64,000 bases of DNA, taken from NCBI GenBank assembly GCA_035559535.1, contig DATMBG010000058.1:248001-312000 (forward strand), written 5' to 3'. Positions 55,650 through 64,000 of the stretch are shown here, piece after piece; within the stretch, counting starts at the first letter, position 1; each line of letters starts with the position of its first letter. The stretch comes from Candidatus Limnocylindrales bacterium (lineage in GTDB: Bacteria > Moduliflexota > Moduliflexia > Moduliflexales > JAUQPW01). Below the pieces are notes generated by a model. The model saw only the letters and a program-made list of their open reading frames with translations, was not told the origin of the DNA and ran no database searches. The position numbers and the translations under genes are program-made.

Positions 55650-56750
55650 ATGTCTAGCAAAATTGAAAGAGACCACGCACGATTTAATCAGATTATTCGA
55701 GGTAAGATCAAGAAGGAACTACGCCGATATATGACGCGTGGAGAACTGATCGGGAAGAAGGGAAAAGATCTGGTTAGTATTCCGATTCCTCAAGTGGAGA
55801 TTCCCCATTTTGAATTTGAAACCCGAAAACTCGGGGGGGTAGGTCAAGGAGAGGGTGAGCCTGGAACCCCTATTGGTCGAGGAGATGCCGAACCCGGGCA
55901 AGGTGCCGGAGAAACTCCCGGGGATCACATTCTGGAAGTTGATCTTTCCCTGGAGGAATTGGCTAAAATCTTGGGTGAAGAGCTGGAACTGCCCCGGATA
56001 GAGCCCCGAGGTAAGAAGAACATTGTTAACGAAAAAGAAAGATATACCGGCATCCGTCAGGTTGGACCTGAAAGTCTTCGTCACTTCAAAAGAACCTATA
56101 AGGCGGCTCTCAGACGTCAACTGGCCACAGGAACGTATGATCCCAATCACCCCCTTGTGATTCCCATTCAAGAAGATAAACGCTACCGTTCCTGGAAATT
56201 GACCAAGGAACCAGAAAGCAATGCCATTATTTTTTATATTATGGATGTATCGGGTTCTATGGGTGATGAACAGAAGGAAATTGTTCGTATAGAATCCTTC
56301 TGGATCGATACCTGGTTACGTTCTCAGTATAAAGGGATTGAATCCCGTTACATTATCCATGATGCGGTAGCCAGAGAAGTCGATAGCCACACCTTTTATC
56401 ATACCCGGGAAAGTGGAGGAACCATCATCTCCTCTGCCTATGAGTTATGTAACCGACTCATCGAGGCACATTATAATCCCTCCGAATGGAATATATATAT
56501 TTTCCATTTTTCCGATGGGGATAACTGGTATGGGGATACCGATAAGTGTCTTTCGATTCTTGAAAATCACCTGCTCCCCAAAGTTAATCTCTTCTGTTAC
56601 GGACAGGTCCGAAGTTTTTATGGAAGCGGTCAATTTAAAGGTGAGATCGATGAGTACTTTGGAGATACGGAGAATGTAGTAACTTCGGAAATTAACAGTA
56701 AGGAAGGGATTTACGATTCCATTAAGGAATTTCTCGGAAAAGGGAAATAG
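55650..56750 (+). CDS. yeaH: DUF444 protein YeaH/YhbH (vWA-like)
   Basis: 366-residue protein of the DUF444 family. Residues about 45-110 are a Gly/Pro-rich low-complexity stretch ([20 protein letters not shown]). The C-terminal von Willebrand A-like domain has the MIDAS motif [15 protein letters not shown] (about residue 197) and [28 protein letters not shown]. It is always found between prkA and spoVR and acts with the PrkA kinase in stress survival; in B. subtilis YhbH is a sporulation protein. Exact activity unknown. Confidence 0.93.
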
Positions 56751-56835
56751 AAGCGACACAGAGACACGGTGACAGGGGGAGGCGGCCTTTTTCCCCTCAT
56801 CGTTGTATCTCCGTGTTGCTCTCTCTTAGCAGTAC
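56751..56835. repeat. Inverted word array (ACACAGAGACACGGTGAC / GTATCTCCGTGTTGC)
   Basis: Words of the ACACGGAGA type on the left and their complements on the right fill the gap between yeaH and spoVR and end just before the spoVR ATG. Confidence 0.6.
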
Positions 56836-56842
56836 CGGTTTT

Positions 56843-58327
56843 ATGAGTCTTACCCCTGAGTTAGAAGCTATCCGTAAAGAGGTCGAGGGCTACGCCCGGG
56901 AGTACGGTTTGGATTTCTTTGAGGTAATCTTTGAGATCCTGGATTTTGACAAGCTCAATGAAGTAGCCAGTTATATGGGCTTTCCAACCCGATATCCCCA
57001 CTGGCGGTTCGGTATGGAGTATGAACAACTCCAGAAAAGCTATACCTATGGCCTTCAGAAGATCTACGAAATGGTCATTAACAATGATCCTTCCTATGCC
57101 TATTTGCTCAAGTGCAATAACGATGTGGATCAAAAACTGGTTATGGCCCACGTATACGGTCATGTAGACTTTTTTAAAAATAATATCTGGTTTTCACAAA
57201 CCAATCGAAAAATGATGGATGGCATGGCCAATCATGGAGCCCGAATTCGTCGCTATATTGATAAGTATGGGGAGGAAAAAGTCGAGCGTTTCCTGGATTG
57301 CTGCCTGTCTCTGGAGAATTTGATAGATCCCCATTCCCCCTTTATTAAACGCCAGGATGAAAAGCCCCGGTTTAATTTTCAAGAAGAAGAAGAGGAGAAG
57401 ACCGTCAAAAAACTCAAAGTTGAAAGACCTTACATGGATAGCTACATCAATCCGTCAGATTTTTTGGAAAGTCAGAAAAAGAAGTTAGAACAGGAAGCCG
57501 AAAAAAAACAAAAATTCCCGGAGAATCCCGAGCGGGATGTTCTCTTGTTCCTCATTAACCATGCCCCTCTGGAAAACTGGCAACTTGACATTTTGTCCAT
57601 TATTCGAGATGAAGCCTATTATTTCGCTCCCCAAGCCCAGACAAAGATAATGAACGAAGGATGGGCCTCCTACTGGCATTCTAAAATTATGACCCAGAAA
57701 TGCCTGAAGGATTCTGAAGTGATTGATTATGCCGATCATCACTCTGGAACCCTCAGTACCCGACCTGGGCGGATTAATCCTTATAAGCTCGGTATAGAAT
57801 TGTTTCGGGATATCGAAGATCGGTGGAATAAGGGAAAATTCGGTAAGGAATATGAGGAATGTGATGATCTGGAGAAAAAGAAAAATTGGGATAAAAAGTT
57901 GGGTCTGGGGCTGCAAAAAATCTTCGAGGTTCGGAAAATTTATAACGATGTGATGTTTATCGATGCCTTTTTAACGGAGGAGTTTTGCCGGGAACAGAAA
58001 CTTTTTACTTATAGATATAATGAACAGACCCAGATGTATGAAATTGCCGATCGAGATTTCAAAAAAATAAAGGCTTCCTTACTCTTCAGTCTGACCAATT
58101 TCGGTCAGCCTTTTATTTATATTACCGATGCCAATTATGGGAATCGAGGTGAACTTTACCTCCAACATCGCTACGAAGGGGTTGAACTTCGGATTGACTA
58201 TGCCAAGGATACCCTTCAAAACCTTTATACCCTGTGGAAACGCCCCGTTCATCTGGAGACTGTGGTCAATGACAAAGGAATTCTCTTTACGTTTGATGGG
58301 AAAAGTCATGAGGAGAGACGAATTTAA
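56843..58327 (+). CDS. spoVR: SpoVR family protein
   Basis: 494 residues from the ATG at 56843; a GTG at 56813 lies within a repeat. Conserved regions: LDFFEVIFEILDFDKLNEVA, GFPTRYPHWRFGMEYEQL, NDVDQKLVMAHVYGHVDFFK, INHAPLENWQLDILSIIRDE, NEGWASYWHSKIM and the C-terminal YANYGNRGEL/LYLQHRYEGVELR region. SpoVR was named for spore cortex formation in Bacillus but is widespread in non-spore-formers as YcgB, linked to PrkA-YeaH. Biochemical role unsolved. Immediately followed by a sensor kinase gene. Confidence 0.95.
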   Translation: MSLTPELEAIRKEVEGYAREYGLDFFEVIFEILDFDKLNEVASYMGFPTRYPHWRFGMEYEQLQKSYTYGLQKIYEMVINNDPSYAYLLKCNNDVDQKLVMAHVYGHVDFFKNNIWFSQTNRKMMDGMANHGARIRRYIDKYGEEKVERFLDCCLSLENLIDPHSPFIKRQDEKPRFNFQEEEEEKTVKKLKVERPYMDSYINPSDFLESQKKKLEQEAEKKQKFPENPERDVLLFLINHAPLENWQLDILSIIRDEAYYFAPQAQTKIMNEGWASYWHSKIMTQKCLKDSEVIDYADHHSGTLSTRPGRINPYKLGIELFRDIEDRWNKGKFGKEYEECDDLEKKKNWDKKLGLGLQKIFEVRKIYNDVMFIDAFLTEEFCREQKLFTYRYNEQTQMYEIADRDFKKIKASLLFSLTNFGQPFIYITDANYGNRGELYLQHRYEGVELRIDYAKDTLQNLYTLWKRPVHLETVVNDKGILFTFDGKSHEERRI

Positions 58328-58359
58328 TTAACGGGGAATCAATGAATGGGGAGTGGGGA

Positions 58360-60063
58360 ATGAGAAAGACAAAACTTCAAACTCTCATCTGGATTGCAAC
58401 GGCCTGTATAGCCTTATTCCTTTCAACCGGTGCGTATATTGCGTATCGTAGCATGGAAGGAGAAATTGCGAATCAATTTAATAAACAACAGGAGATGCTG
58501 GCCAAGCAGGCGGCTTCCGGAATCGAAGCCCATTTTCAAGAAATTCTCTTTACCCTAAAATTGGGGACTTCCTTGGAAAATGAAGGAATGGGGGTTAATT
58601 CGATTAACCTCAAAACCCTCTATGATCGACTCAACGGAAAAGTGATTAGCCTGGTTCGGGTAGATGAGTCCGGAATCCCAAAGCAAGCCTATCCTGAGGA
58701 AATCCTTGAACAGGTTAAAAACCGAAATTACCACGGAGTAGATTATTTTCGGGTCTGCTGGATTACCGGCCAACCCTACATATCTAAATGGTTAACAGAT
58801 AAAACCCAGCCAAGGAAGATCATCGTAGCCGTTCCGGTTTTTAATCGGGAAGTACGGGATGGTCTTTCGGCTTTCAAAGGGATTCTCCTGGCCGATGTAG
58901 ATCCCAATATTATTATCGATACCTATATTAAACCCATAAAATCCGGTAAGTCGGGATTTGCCTGGCTCATCGATAGTAATGGAACTCTTTTATATCATCC
59001 CTTTCATCCGGATAGTAAGGATTCGGCAGATCATTCTTATAGTGAGAACGAGGATAGTTGTAGGGAATGTCATCAGTCCTTTGACCTTGAGACCAAGATG
59101 GTGACCGGGGAAGCCGGTCACACCCGGCTAAAGACTCATACCGGTCAGGAATATTTAATTGCCTATTCCCCGGTTCATATCGATGGGGCGATGTGGGCTG
59201 CTATCGGGGTCAATGTTCCTTACTCGGATGTAACCAATTCGGTTCGAAGAAGCTTCATCTGTATTTTCATCCTGGTCATTATGACCGTAGCCATTATTAT
59301 CATCGGAGCCGCAGCCATCATCCGGCTTAACAATAAACGAATCAAGGCCGAGGAAGTCCTTGCATCGGAAAGATTGGTTACCATTGGAAAAATGGCGGCT
59401 CAAGTGGCCCATGAGATTCGTAACCCCCTCAGTTCTATTAGCTTAAACGCCGAACTCCTGGAAGAGGAAATTAATAGTTATGAAGGGGTATCGACGGAAG
59501 AGGCCAGATCGCTTTTAACGGCAATTATGTCTGAAGTCGATCGATTAGCCTCTATTACAGAGGATTATCTCAAATTTGCCCGGTTACCCAGGCCGGTCTG
59601 GGAAAAGGAAAATATCAACCATATTCTCCTGGACTTACTCAACTTTTCCAAGGAAGAAATTGCAAAACATGGGATTCAGGTTATGACCCAATTTGATCCT
59701 TCGATTCCGGAGATCAAGTTAGATGAAAAACAACTGCGGGAGGCTTTTCTGAATATTTTGAAGAATGCCTTCGAAGCCATGCCCCAGGGCGGTGAGCTTC
59801 AGATTACCACAGCCAGGACGGGTGAGCAAATCGAAGTGATCATCTCGGATACCGGAATCGGCATAGAGGAAAAAAATCTGGAGAAGATCTTTACTCCCTT
59901 TTTCACAACCAAAGAGGACGGTACCGGACTTGGCCTGGCTTTAACTCAGCAAATTATCCACGAACACGGAGGTACTATCCAGTGTAGAAGTCAGGTGGGC
60001 AAAGGAACAACTTTTGTCCTACAATTTCCTGTGGTGGGTCAACGCGTGAAAATGGATAAGTAA
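58360..60063 (+). CDS. Cache-domain sensor histidine kinase with a periplasmic CxxCH motif
   Basis: 567 residues from ATG 58360 (GGGGAG upstream; ATG 58342 would add six). Order: membrane helix (about 5-30), periplasmic double-Cache domain (about 35-295), second membrane helix (about 300-325), dimerisation/phosphoacceptor helix with His in AAQVAHEIRNPLSSISLNAE, and a HATPase domain (NILKNAFEAMP, SDTGIGIEE, GTGLGLALT). Inside the sensor domain SCRECH at nucleotides 59059-59073 is a CxxCH c-type haem-binding motif, rare in Cache domains and suggestive of redox, oxygen or NO sensing. It follows spoVR by 32 bases and precedes its likely partner NtrC regulator by 197 bases. Confidence 0.93.
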   Translation: MRKTKLQTLIWIATACIALFLSTGAYIAYRSMEGEIANQFNKQQEMLAKQAASGIEAHFQEILFTLKLGTSLENEGMGVNSINLKTLYDRLNGKVISLVRVDESGIPKQAYPEEILEQVKNRNYHGVDYFRVCWITGQPYISKWLTDKTQPRKIIVAVPVFNREVRDGLSAFKGILLADVDPNIIIDTYIKPIKSGKSGFAWLIDSNGTLLYHPFHPDSKDSADHSYSENEDSCRECHQSFDLETKMVTGEAGHTRLKTHTGQEYLIAYSPVHIDGAMWAAIGVNVPYSDVTNSVRRSFICIFILVIMTVAIIIIGAAAIIRLNNKRIKAEEVLASERLVTIGKMAAQVAHEIRNPLSSISLNAELLEEEINSYEGVSTEEARSLLTAIMSEVDRLASITEDYLKFARLPRPVWEKENINHILLDLLNFSKEEIAKHGIQVMTQFDPSIPEIKLDEKQLREAFLNILKNAFEAMPQGGELQITTARTGEQIEVIISDTGIGIEEKNLEKIFTPFFTTKEDGTGLGLALTQQIIHEHGGTIQCRSQVGKGTTFVLQFPVVGQRVKMDK

Positions 60064-60083
60064 CTAGAATGGATTTTTGTAAC

Positions 60084-60147
60084 CCTACCTCACCCCCCTT
60101 CCCCCTTTCCTGAAGCTTCAGGAAAGGGGGAAGGGGGGTGAGGTAGG
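60084..60147. repeat. Perfect 64-bp palindrome between sensor and regulator genes
   Basis: The 32 bases 60084-60115 (CCTACCTCACCCCCCTTCCC onward) are matched exactly by their complement at 60116-60147 with no spacer; the centre is AAGCTT. Belongs by composition to the GC-rich repeat family of the window. In RNA it forms a very stable hairpin that could restrict read-through from the kinase gene to the regulator gene. Confidence 0.9.
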
Positions 60148-60260
60148 AAGATCTCTTACGCCTTATTCTTCTTTATTTGAAATTTTGGGAAAGGGGTTAG
60201 AAAGAAGGAATTGATTTTTACTTTATCTTTTTTATTCTTTGTTTTTATTCTTTGTTAATT

Positions 60261-61739
60261 ATGGATACCAGCTCAGAATCTACTATTCTTATCGTAGATG
60301 ATCATAAGGAAACTCAAGAATCCCTCATAAAGATTCTTCAAAAAGAGGGTTACACCGTACTTGCTGCGGAAAGCGGTGAAATGGCTTTGGATATTATCCG
60401 AAAACGCCCGGTCCACGTCGTCGTGACCGATTTAAGGATGCCCGGGATGAGTGGAATCGATCTACTCCGGGCCTGTAAGGCCATAGCCCCTGAAATAGAG
60501 ATTGTTTTGATTTCAGGTTATGGGACTATAGAGACGGCTGTAGAGGCTATGAAAGAAGGGGCCTATGATTTTGTGGCTAAGCCTTTCAAAAAGATCATGC
60601 TGACCAAAACCATCAAGAAGGCTCTTGAAAAACAGTCATTAGCGGCTGAAAATCGTTATCTTAAAGAGCAGATCAAAGACTTGAAGAGTTTGGGTTCAAG
60701 AAAACAAGTTATTGGTACCAGTCTGGCCATGCGTCGGGTTCTGGAGATTGTTTCCCAAGTGGCCTCCAGTTCAGCAACGGTACTCATCCAGGGTGAGAGT
60801 GGGACAGGTAAAGAAGTTATTGCCAATGCCCTTCACTATTACAGTTCTCGAGCCGATAAACCCTTTGTGAAGGTAAGCTGTGCCGCCTTACCTGAAACTC
60901 TATTAGAAGCCGAGCTCTTCGGACACGAGCGGGGTGCCTTTACAGGAGCAATAGCCCGTAGGGAAGGAAGATTCGAAGTCGCCAATGGAGGAACCCTATT
61001 CCTGGATGAAATTGGCGAGATGAGTATGGCGACCCAGGTTAAACTCCTTCGGGTTCTCCAGGAAGGTGAGTTTGAAAGGCTTGGCTCTTCCAAGACTATC
61101 AAAGTAGATGTCCGTCTTGTTGCGGCGACGAATGTGGATTTGCTGGAAGCTATCAAACAGAAAAAGTTTCGAGAGGATCTCTATTACCGGTTAAATGTAA
61201 TTACGCTTACCCTTCCTCCTCTTCGGGACCGAAAAGAAGATATTCCCTTACTGGCCGAGCATTTCTTAAATATCTATCGGGAGAAAAATCATAAATCTAT
61301 CAAAGGAATCTCCAAAGAAGCCATGGATATTCTGTTAGCCTATTCCTGGCCTGGGAATGTTCGCGAGCTGGAGAATACCATAGAACGTGCCGTGGTTCTG
61401 GCAAGAACTGATCTAATCACCCTGGAGGAGCTCCCTGAAAATCTTAAACGGTCTGTCGTCTCCCTGGGGGCCGATCCCATTACTCCGGAAGAACTCTCTG
61501 AAACCCTTAAAGGAGAAAACTTGAACAAGAATTATTTGATCGTTCCTCTGGGAACTCCCTTGGAAGAGATAGAACTTCAGGTAATTCATGAAACTCTGCG
61601 GCGGGTCAAGGGGGATAAGAACCTGGCGGCCAAACTTTTAGGAATTGCCTCCAGAACCATTTATCGAAAGTTAGGTGAGTTGGAAAAGATGGACTCGCCT
61701 TCGGAGCATAAAGAAGAGATCATCCTGGATCAGACCTGA
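60261..61739 (+). CDS. NtrC-family sigma-54-dependent response regulator
   Basis: 492-residue transcription activator. The receiver domain (1-120) has [13 protein letters not shown] and the phospho-acceptor Asp in [13 protein letters not shown]. The AAA domain (about 145-385) has Walker [10 protein letters not shown], the sigma-54 contact GAFTGA in [14 protein letters not shown], Walker [11 protein letters not shown] and [10 protein letters not shown]. The C-terminal helix-turn-helix is Fis-like ([18 protein letters not shown]). ATG 60261 is preferred over TTG 60252. The gene is downstream of its likely sensor kinase; a predicted sigma-54 promoter with an inverted-repeat enhancer lies just after it. 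Confidence 0.95.
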
Positions 61740-62000: not shown

Positions 62001-62016
62001 TGGCTTGTATCTTGCA
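62001..62016 (+). promoter_or_regulatory. Sigma-54 promoter for the downstream receiver gene
   Basis: TGGCTTGTATCTTGCA has the -24 GG and -12 GC exactly ten bases apart (GG-N10-GC), the sigma-54 rule. Transcription would start near 62027, about 95 bases before the ATG at 62121. Confidence 0.65.
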
Positions 62017-62670: not shown

Positions 62671-62693
62671 GCAGGCGAGACGCCTGCGTTCCT
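62671..62693. repeat. Palindromic GCAGGCG-AGA-CGCCTGC repeat
   Basis: GCAGGCGAGACGCCTGCGTT with CC following resembles the unit at 50011-50035 (shared GGCGAG, CGCC and GCGTTCC); the stem bases differ in parallel between the two copies. Confidence 0.5.
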
Positions 62694-62756
62694 AAGCTGC
62701 GTTAGATTTTGTTATCGATTGGATGGTCATTACCGTATGAAGGAGGTAAAGCTGTT

Positions 62757-64000
62757 ATGCCAACACCCCTATCACTGGATGAGCGCATCGCTTCTCTGGT
62801 TCCAGAGGTTGGTGAAGAATTTCGGGTGGAACTCAGGCATGCCTTACAAACGTTACGGGCGTCAGAGAATCCCATTGGGGTTTTATTGGGTATGCCCCAT
62901 TTGATTTGGCGATTAATCGAGGAGATTCTAAAATGCGCAGGGTATAGACGACCCAGCAATAGTCTTTATGACTGTATCCTTATGGCCGCTCACGGGGATC
63001 CCGAAAAAAAGATTAAGGGATTGAATATCCTGCCCGATGAGATGGCTTCCCATTTCCATAGGCTCTATAAGCTTTCTAACCGGGCCGACCATGTTACTGA
63101 ACAAGCCACCCTGACGGTTGCCGATGCCGAAAATGCTTTGCATCTTTTCCTGCGTGTGCTGGAATGGTTTTATTGTGAAAGCGAGCCGGGTCCCCATTTA
63201 CCTACCATTTACGGGGAAATAACCGATGGGAGTTATAAAGCTCCCGAAAAGTTACAGGAAATATCCCAAAAAAGGGCCCGATTGGAAAAACTCTTGAAGG
63301 AAAGGTATACAAAACCCGTTGCAGTCATGTTTATTACCCTGGAAGGTACTGGAAAGTCTTTTGGAGGATCGAGTGATCTCATGGATTTTAAAAGGCTCCA
63401 ACCATATCGCGCGCTGCTTCTTCCTATCACGGAAGGGCAGGGTAGGGTTATCCAAACCACCGGGGATACTCTGATAGCTTGTTTCAATAATCCTGAAAAA
63501 GCTGTTAAAACAGCTATCGAAATGCAAAAGATTCTTCGGGAAACCGCCGGTCAGGGGGAAGAAACTTATCTGTGTATTGGAATTAACTATGGGATCGGTA
63601 TGGTAGAGCAGAAAGAAGACGGCACCCTGGAGGTATCTGAAGCGGCTGTGAACCCGGCAGCCTGGGTCAAAGAAGAGGGAAAAAAGATTAGTCAGGTTTT
63701 TATCTCTCAATCTGTTTATAAAGCTATCCAAAATTCTAAAGAGATTACCCGCCTCTCTAAGGAGAGAGAAAAAACCGAGAAGAAAATAAAACCTTCCCCT
63801 ATTTATCCGGTTGTTCTGAGAGCTATCCTGGGGATCACCCTTATAGGACTTGTTCTGATTGTAGGGTTCTTCAGCTATAAGCACCGGCTTTCCCCACGAC
63901 TCCCGTCCCATGAACCTGCAATAAGACTGCCTTACGATCAAGTTTCTCAGGAACCCGGATCTTATAAGCCGGAGAGTATCGAAGCTATCGTTAAAACTCC
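62757..64000 (+). CDS. HEPN-like / degenerate class III cyclase membrane protein, C-terminus cut by window edge
   Basis: At least 414 residues, open to the right edge. AAGGAGG precedes the ATG by ten bases. Residues about 30-150 resemble a HEPN/DUF4145-type helical bundle (IWRLIEEILKCAGYRR, HFHRLYKLSNRADHVTEQAT, ALHLFLRVLEWFY). Residues about 183-320 follow the class III nucleotidyl cyclase pattern: VAVMFITLEG, TTGDTLIACFNNPEKAVKTA, IGINYGIGMV, VNPAAW. The first metal Asp is replaced by Thr (FITLEG instead of FxDxxG) and the VNxAAR arginine by Trp, while the second Asp (GDT) and the Asn are kept, so catalysis is doubtful. A membrane helix at about 351-374 follows. Domain call inferred from motifs. 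Confidence 0.6.
   Translation, partial: MPTPLSLDERIASLVPEVGEEFRVELRHALQTLRASENPIGVLLGMPHLIWRLIEEILKCAGYRRPSNSLYDCILMAAHGDPEKKIKGLNILPDEMASHFHRLYKLSNRADHVTEQATLTVADAENALHLFLRVLEWFYCESEPGPHLPTIYGEITDGSYKAPEKLQEISQKRARLEKLLKERYTKPVAVMFITLEGTGKSFGGSSDLMDFKRLQPYRALLLPITEGQGRVIQTTGDTLIACFNNPEKAVKTAIEMQKILRETAGQGEETYLCIGINYGIGMVEQKEDGTLEVSEAAVNPAAWVKEEGKKISQVFISQSVYKAIQNSKEITRLSKEREKTEKKIKPSPIYPVVLRAILGITLIGLVLIVGFFSYKHRLSPRLPSHEPAIRLPYDQVSQEPGSYKPESIEAIVKT

Follow-up and report, generated by a model that had tools for sequence, protein, structure and literature searches.

The gene that begins at position 62757 of the window (the whole stretch of 64,000 nucleotides analyzed here) encodes what is probably an inner-membrane protein, with an envelope domain outside and two cytoplasmic parts that are similar to an RNA-cleaving domain and to a second-messenger-producing enzyme, each without its known catalytic residues. 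It probably has a non-enzymatic role, in signaling or as a scaffold, and is less likely to be a toxin or an active cyclase. From sequence comparisons we read it as a degenerate offshoot of a cyclase-CHAT-membrane-CsgG family, without CHAT and with a HEPN-like head. We give a probability of about one in two to the reading that it serves as an envelope-coupled, non-enzymatic relay or scaffold derived from that family. The earlier note on this DNA saw 414 of the 666 residues and missed the C-terminal third; the full gene has now been obtained, and its features are as follows.

Contig C58 310757-312757 (L002:4758-6758), forward strand: whole gene, 666 codons and 666 amino acids, starting at window position 62757
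62740..62746, forward strand: ribosome-binding site AAGGAGG of the gene, read in the sequence
62757..64000, forward strand: first 414 codons, the part within the window; the remainder extends about 760 bases past the window end
62757..63185, forward strand: residues 1-143, putative helical bundle of DUF4145-like (HEPN-clan) type that lacks the catalytic Arg of HEPN, from hhalign against a DUF4145 profile with shuffled and real-protein controls
63078..63092, forward strand: residues 108-112, NRADH, aligned with the 'GN...H' of DUF4145; NQADP in the sister species
63309..63761, forward strand: residues 185-335, degenerate class III cyclase homology domain, from residue alignment, phmmer, the tree and Foldseek of a low-confidence model
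63807..63869, forward strand: residues 351-371 (about), single predicted membrane helix, hydropathy peak 2.59
63870..64000, forward strand: start of the presumed periplasmic part, before the CsgG/LpoB-like domain
L002:6057-6752, beyond the window: C-terminal module, residues 434-666, holding CsgG/LpoB-like (434-585) and FlgT_C-like (590-648) domains

The ATG at 62757 is preceded by the ribosome-binding site. The membrane helix, which had been recognized earlier, is borne out as one strong hydrophobic segment: residues 352-370 reach the Kyte-Doolittle peak of 2.59, against 1.3 for the next best segment elsewhere in the protein. About 15 residues separate it from the end of the cyclase domain.

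The C-terminal 233 residues match FlgT_C directly (E 7e-4), at a score of 20.4 bits, which is under the curated cut-off of 27. CsgG and LpoB were reached only via relatives, each being matched in five of the seven aligned C-terminal members. An AA_kinase match in Pfam (E 0.05) was taken as chance. The module recurs behind other signaling heads, namely an intact cyclase with CHAT, CHAT alone, and a Ser/Thr kinase. Longer proteins of other lineages (L034, L075, and L077) combine it with the cyclase domain; they consist of an intact cyclase, a caspase-like CHAT domain, a membrane helix, TPRs, and the CsgG/FlgT_C module. More distant relatives include L202 and L204, in which cyclase and CHAT are followed by a diverged C-terminal module, and proteins that carry the module with CHAT alone or with a Ser/Thr kinase. 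The five proteins with the order cyclase, CHAT, membrane helix, CsgG/FlgT_C come from several lineages and are located as follows.

L034:4390-7626
L075:115-3675
L077:12216-15131
L202:1456-4758
L204:1125-4049

All five have D, K, D, N, and R in the catalytic columns of the cyclase, and the His and Cys motifs of CHAT are present in 12 of 12 CHAT copies checked. Identity of our protein to the cyclase-CHAT proteins is 30-37% in the cyclase domain and 28-34% in the C-terminal module. In a cyclase tree of 68 rows, our protein and its only orthologue, described below, lie on a long branch (1.27) within a group that contains the cyclase-CHAT proteins, with a support of 93/91 that is just under the program's star threshold and a bootstrap that is not fully settled. 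No match to CHAT was found between the cyclase domain and the membrane helix of the gene product. We infer that the protein gave up CHAT and the TPRs and acquired its N-terminal head, and not the reverse. Full-text searches of the literature found no report that joins a class III cyclase, CHAT, and a CsgG-type envelope module in one chain.

We note two further arrangements of the C-terminal module. In L074, L076, L077, and L196, CHAT genes lie beside or near another gene whose product also ends in the CsgG/FlgT_C-like C-terminus and is of a secreted TPR type in L074, L076, and L077; this suggests a two-protein envelope system. L080:2896-5427 encodes a Ser/Thr protein kinase with TPRs, whose C-terminus is related to the module.

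The cyclase domain had been recognized in the earlier note from the motifs FITLEG, TGDTLIACF, IGINYGIG, and VNPAAW, which are all present in the sequence; the coordinates of that note hold as well. The cyclase fold is supported by a phmmer comparison with cyclases of the PDB, in which the best E is 3.4e-5. AlphaFold2, working from two sequences only, gave low-confidence models (pLDDT 57 for the N-terminus and 37 for the full length), too poor to serve as fold evidence for HEPN; Foldseek of a low-confidence model still places cyclases first (E 6e-6). The score against the Pfam class III cyclase family (PF00211) is 13.1, below the cut-off of 21.9 bits. The full residue set of two metal aspartates and the Asn/Arg pair is not present in the alignment. 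The first metal Asp is replaced by Thr194 and the transition-state Arg by Trp303 in both species, as had been claimed for this copy; the term pseudo-cyclase is apt. The second metal Asp is kept as D237 in this copy and is Gly in the sister species, while the transition-state Asn is kept as N299 in both.

Of the single-domain class III cyclase genes in the same genome, which number 15 including this one, five are without a metal Asp or the Arg, and so are their five counterparts in the sister genome. In two further genomes of this order, all 15 of the single-domain genes retain these residues; tandem cyclases, whose halves share residues, were set apart from these counts. The four further degenerate genes are L131, L141, L146, and L165 in this genome and L130, L140, L134, and L168 in the sister, and those of this genome fall elsewhere in the tree. 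On these small numbers, the genus seems to lose cyclase residues frequently.

Class III cyclases build their active sites from two chains. The main rival to a relay or scaffold is a role as regulatory partner to one of the other class III cyclases in the genome, in which the pseudo-domain would pair with an intact cyclase, form or block its half-sites, and so couple that cyclase to the envelope. The intermolecular site, the approximately 15 cyclase genes in the genome, many of them intact, and the retention of N299 in both species are all in keeping with such a role. However, a chain that lacks both the full metal pair and the Asn-Arg pair could complete no half-site alone, no cyclase gene is adjacent, and the nearest relatives are found in other lineages and not among the cyclases of its own genome, except for a looser grouping with L149. 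We regard a regulatory partner as rather unlikely.

A full-length orthologue is present in one other genome of the same genus (L033:8001-10061), with 83% identity and the same genes on both sides. The sample of orthologues therefore comprises two copies from one genus, both from assembled metagenomes. Both copies are full length, without a stop or a frameshift, and in both the first metal Asp and the Arg are missing. By domain, dN/dS is 0.12 for the N-terminus, 0.32 for the cyclase domain (bootstrap 0.21-0.56), 0.53 for the linker and membrane helix, and 0.15 for the C-terminus, making the cyclase domain and the linker the least constrained parts. The bootstrap interval excludes neutrality for the cyclase domain, which on these two sequences is under weaker constraint than both ends, yet not free of it. 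Purifying selection on the gene continues, and the comparison reveals no visible decay.

The earlier note had proposed that homologues with an intact cyclase site would mark this copy as a decayed gene. Five such relatives do exist, but plain decay does not follow from them, since two species keep the gene at full length and under constraint. In a slower form of decay, an inherited cyclase-CHAT-CsgG protein would be shedding its cyclase domain after the loss of CHAT. The long branch of the cyclase domain and the intact relatives agree with this, as does the whole-gene dN/dS of 0.26, compared to 0.05-0.13 for five neighboring genes; against it stand two species without a stop or frameshift, the strong constraint on the N- and C-terminal domains, and a cyclase interval that excludes neutrality. 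We consider slow decay distinctly unlikely.

The N-terminal domain was compared by hhalign to a profile built from 14 DUF4145 domains taken from other genomes, giving a score of 32.4 and a probability of 70. None of 200 column-shuffled controls reached this score (all at most 19.3); the reversed sequence gave 21.9, and real-protein segments that do not overlap the N-terminal domain gave at most 16.5. The alignment spans helices 3-4, where the 'GN...H' of DUF4145 falls on N108 and H112. It suggests, with moderate confidence, that the domain is akin to HEPN/DUF4145. The isolated N-terminus had no match in Pfam, a profile search of the PDB gave nothing below E 0.2, and the N-terminal model (pLDDT 57) found the HEPN entry 4nqf at E 2.6. 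The region was seen in two of 240 genomes sampled, both of this genus, and a profile search of 335 genomes gave convincing matches only in the two known copies. The best other matches were a short one in a 479-residue protein whose sequence resembles a class III aminotransferase (E 0.001) and a 109-residue frame in G267 (E 0.012).

The kinship to HEPN/DUF4145 claimed in the earlier note therefore stands at this moderate level, but the R-x2-H that it took as typical does not: the HEPN RNase motif is Rx4-6H (PMC3710099), it is absent from the alignment of both species, and R109 and H112 are Gln and Pro in the sister. The position of Arg in DUF4145 members is occupied by Tyr104 in both species. 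These substitutions also count against the suggestion that the protein is an RNase effector, switched by nucleotide binding in the pseudo-cyclase domain, and the N-terminal domain has no match to defense models. That suggestion can draw on the DUF4145-like fold, on the description of membrane-linked DUF4145 proteins as proposed stimulus-controlled RNases, and on the toxicity of some HEPN proteins that lack the motif (PMC3710099); in our judgment it is very unlikely. A search against defense models led us to reject a defense annotation. A Pycsar-type cyclic-nucleotide defense system, which pairs an active cyclase of the PycC family with an effector gene next to it, was rejected as well, given a PycC match confined to one of the two orthologues (E 0.0094), the degenerate site, and neighbors that comprise a receiver, a GNAT protein, and metabolic genes. 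That the domain is still an active cyclase, working with a non-standard site, is scarcely tenable: D237 and N299 are kept in this copy and some cyclases with non-consensus residues are active, but the sister lacks both metal aspartates and the Arg.

Upstream of the gene are a DUF444 (YeaH-like) gene, SpoVR, a dCache histidine kinase, an NtrC-type regulator, and a stand-alone receiver, so that the gene does follow an NtrC-type regulator and a receiver, as described earlier. Downstream are a GNAT protein and then metabolic genes, and the gene order is the same in the sister. The genes from DUF444 to the NtrC-type regulator occupy 55650-61739 of the window; in the sister PrkA lies upstream of them (L033:5-859), and thus a PrkA/YeaH/SpoVR cluster adjoins the NtrC-type pair. 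There are 204 bases between the receiver and the gene, which may be transcribed alone; no promoter is supported for it. Sigma-54 control of the receiver, put forward in the earlier note, was rejected: there is one sigma-54-type site with a single mismatch (62001-62016), and sites with up to two mismatches are not above chance in the window. A perfect palindrome, GCAGGCG-AGA-CGCCTGC, lies between the receiver and the gene (62671-62687); it is the only copy in the window and is not followed by a T run. A plasmid search gave no match.

We propose the following mechanism for an envelope-coupled relay or scaffold. The protein would cross the inner membrane once, a topology taken from its relatives and the single helix. 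Outside, the periplasmic CsgG/LpoB-like and FlgT_C-like domains would contact or sense something in the envelope, acting as an input or an anchor. Inside, the cyclase homology domain, having lost residues required for cyclic nucleotide synthesis, would act as a dimerization and relay module, because class III cyclases are dimeric. The N-terminal DUF4145-like bundle would serve as a head for binding or output that lacks the known RNase site of HEPN, given Tyr104 at the Arg position in both species and Pro for His in the sister. A more specific version, which we hold only tentatively, is a receptor in which a pseudo-cyclase and a pseudo-HEPN domain have replaced the working cyclase and CHAT protease of an envelope sensor, giving a protein- or RNA-binding switch instead of a second-messenger or protease sensor. 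The combination of DUF4145-like, pseudo-cyclase, and CsgG-like parts is seen in one genus, in two assembled genomes, and a combination of DUF4145, cyclase, and CsgG-like domains was not found in the literature searched. These observations suggest how the enzymes inside a membrane sensor can be swapped or silenced with its outer module left in place; they point to a family in which one chain unites class III cyclase, caspase-like CHAT, and CsgG-type envelope parts; and working and dead versions of a cyclase-CsgG protein are available for comparison.

Each part of the protein has known counterparts. The cyclase domain matches solved class III adenylyl/guanylyl cyclases (PF00211) such as Ma1120 (4wp3, 5d0g) in sequence, and differs in lacking the first metal Asp and the transition-state Arg and in falling below the Pfam cut-off. 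The N-terminal domain appears to share with DUF4145 (PF13643), of the HEPN superfamily, a helical bundle, the pattern of helices 3-4, and the Asn of 'GN...H', whereas it has no catalytic Arg, its His is not conserved, and the bundle is fused to a cyclase domain and a CsgG-like module; like the membrane-linked DUF4145 proteins (PMC3710099), it would be a cytoplasmic domain tied to a membrane helix. The C-terminal 233 residues resemble the periplasmic CsgG, LpoB, and FlgT_C domains, which here would be tethered by a membrane helix to cytoplasmic signaling domains and not be part of a lipoprotein or secreted protein. Further counterparts are the cyclase-CHAT proteins with a membrane helix, TPRs in most, and CsgG/FlgT_C, which have a related cyclase domain and a related C-terminal module with a membrane helix between them. 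They retain the intact cyclase residues, a CHAT domain with His and Cys, and mostly the TPRs, all of which our protein lacks; it carries a DUF4145-like head instead.
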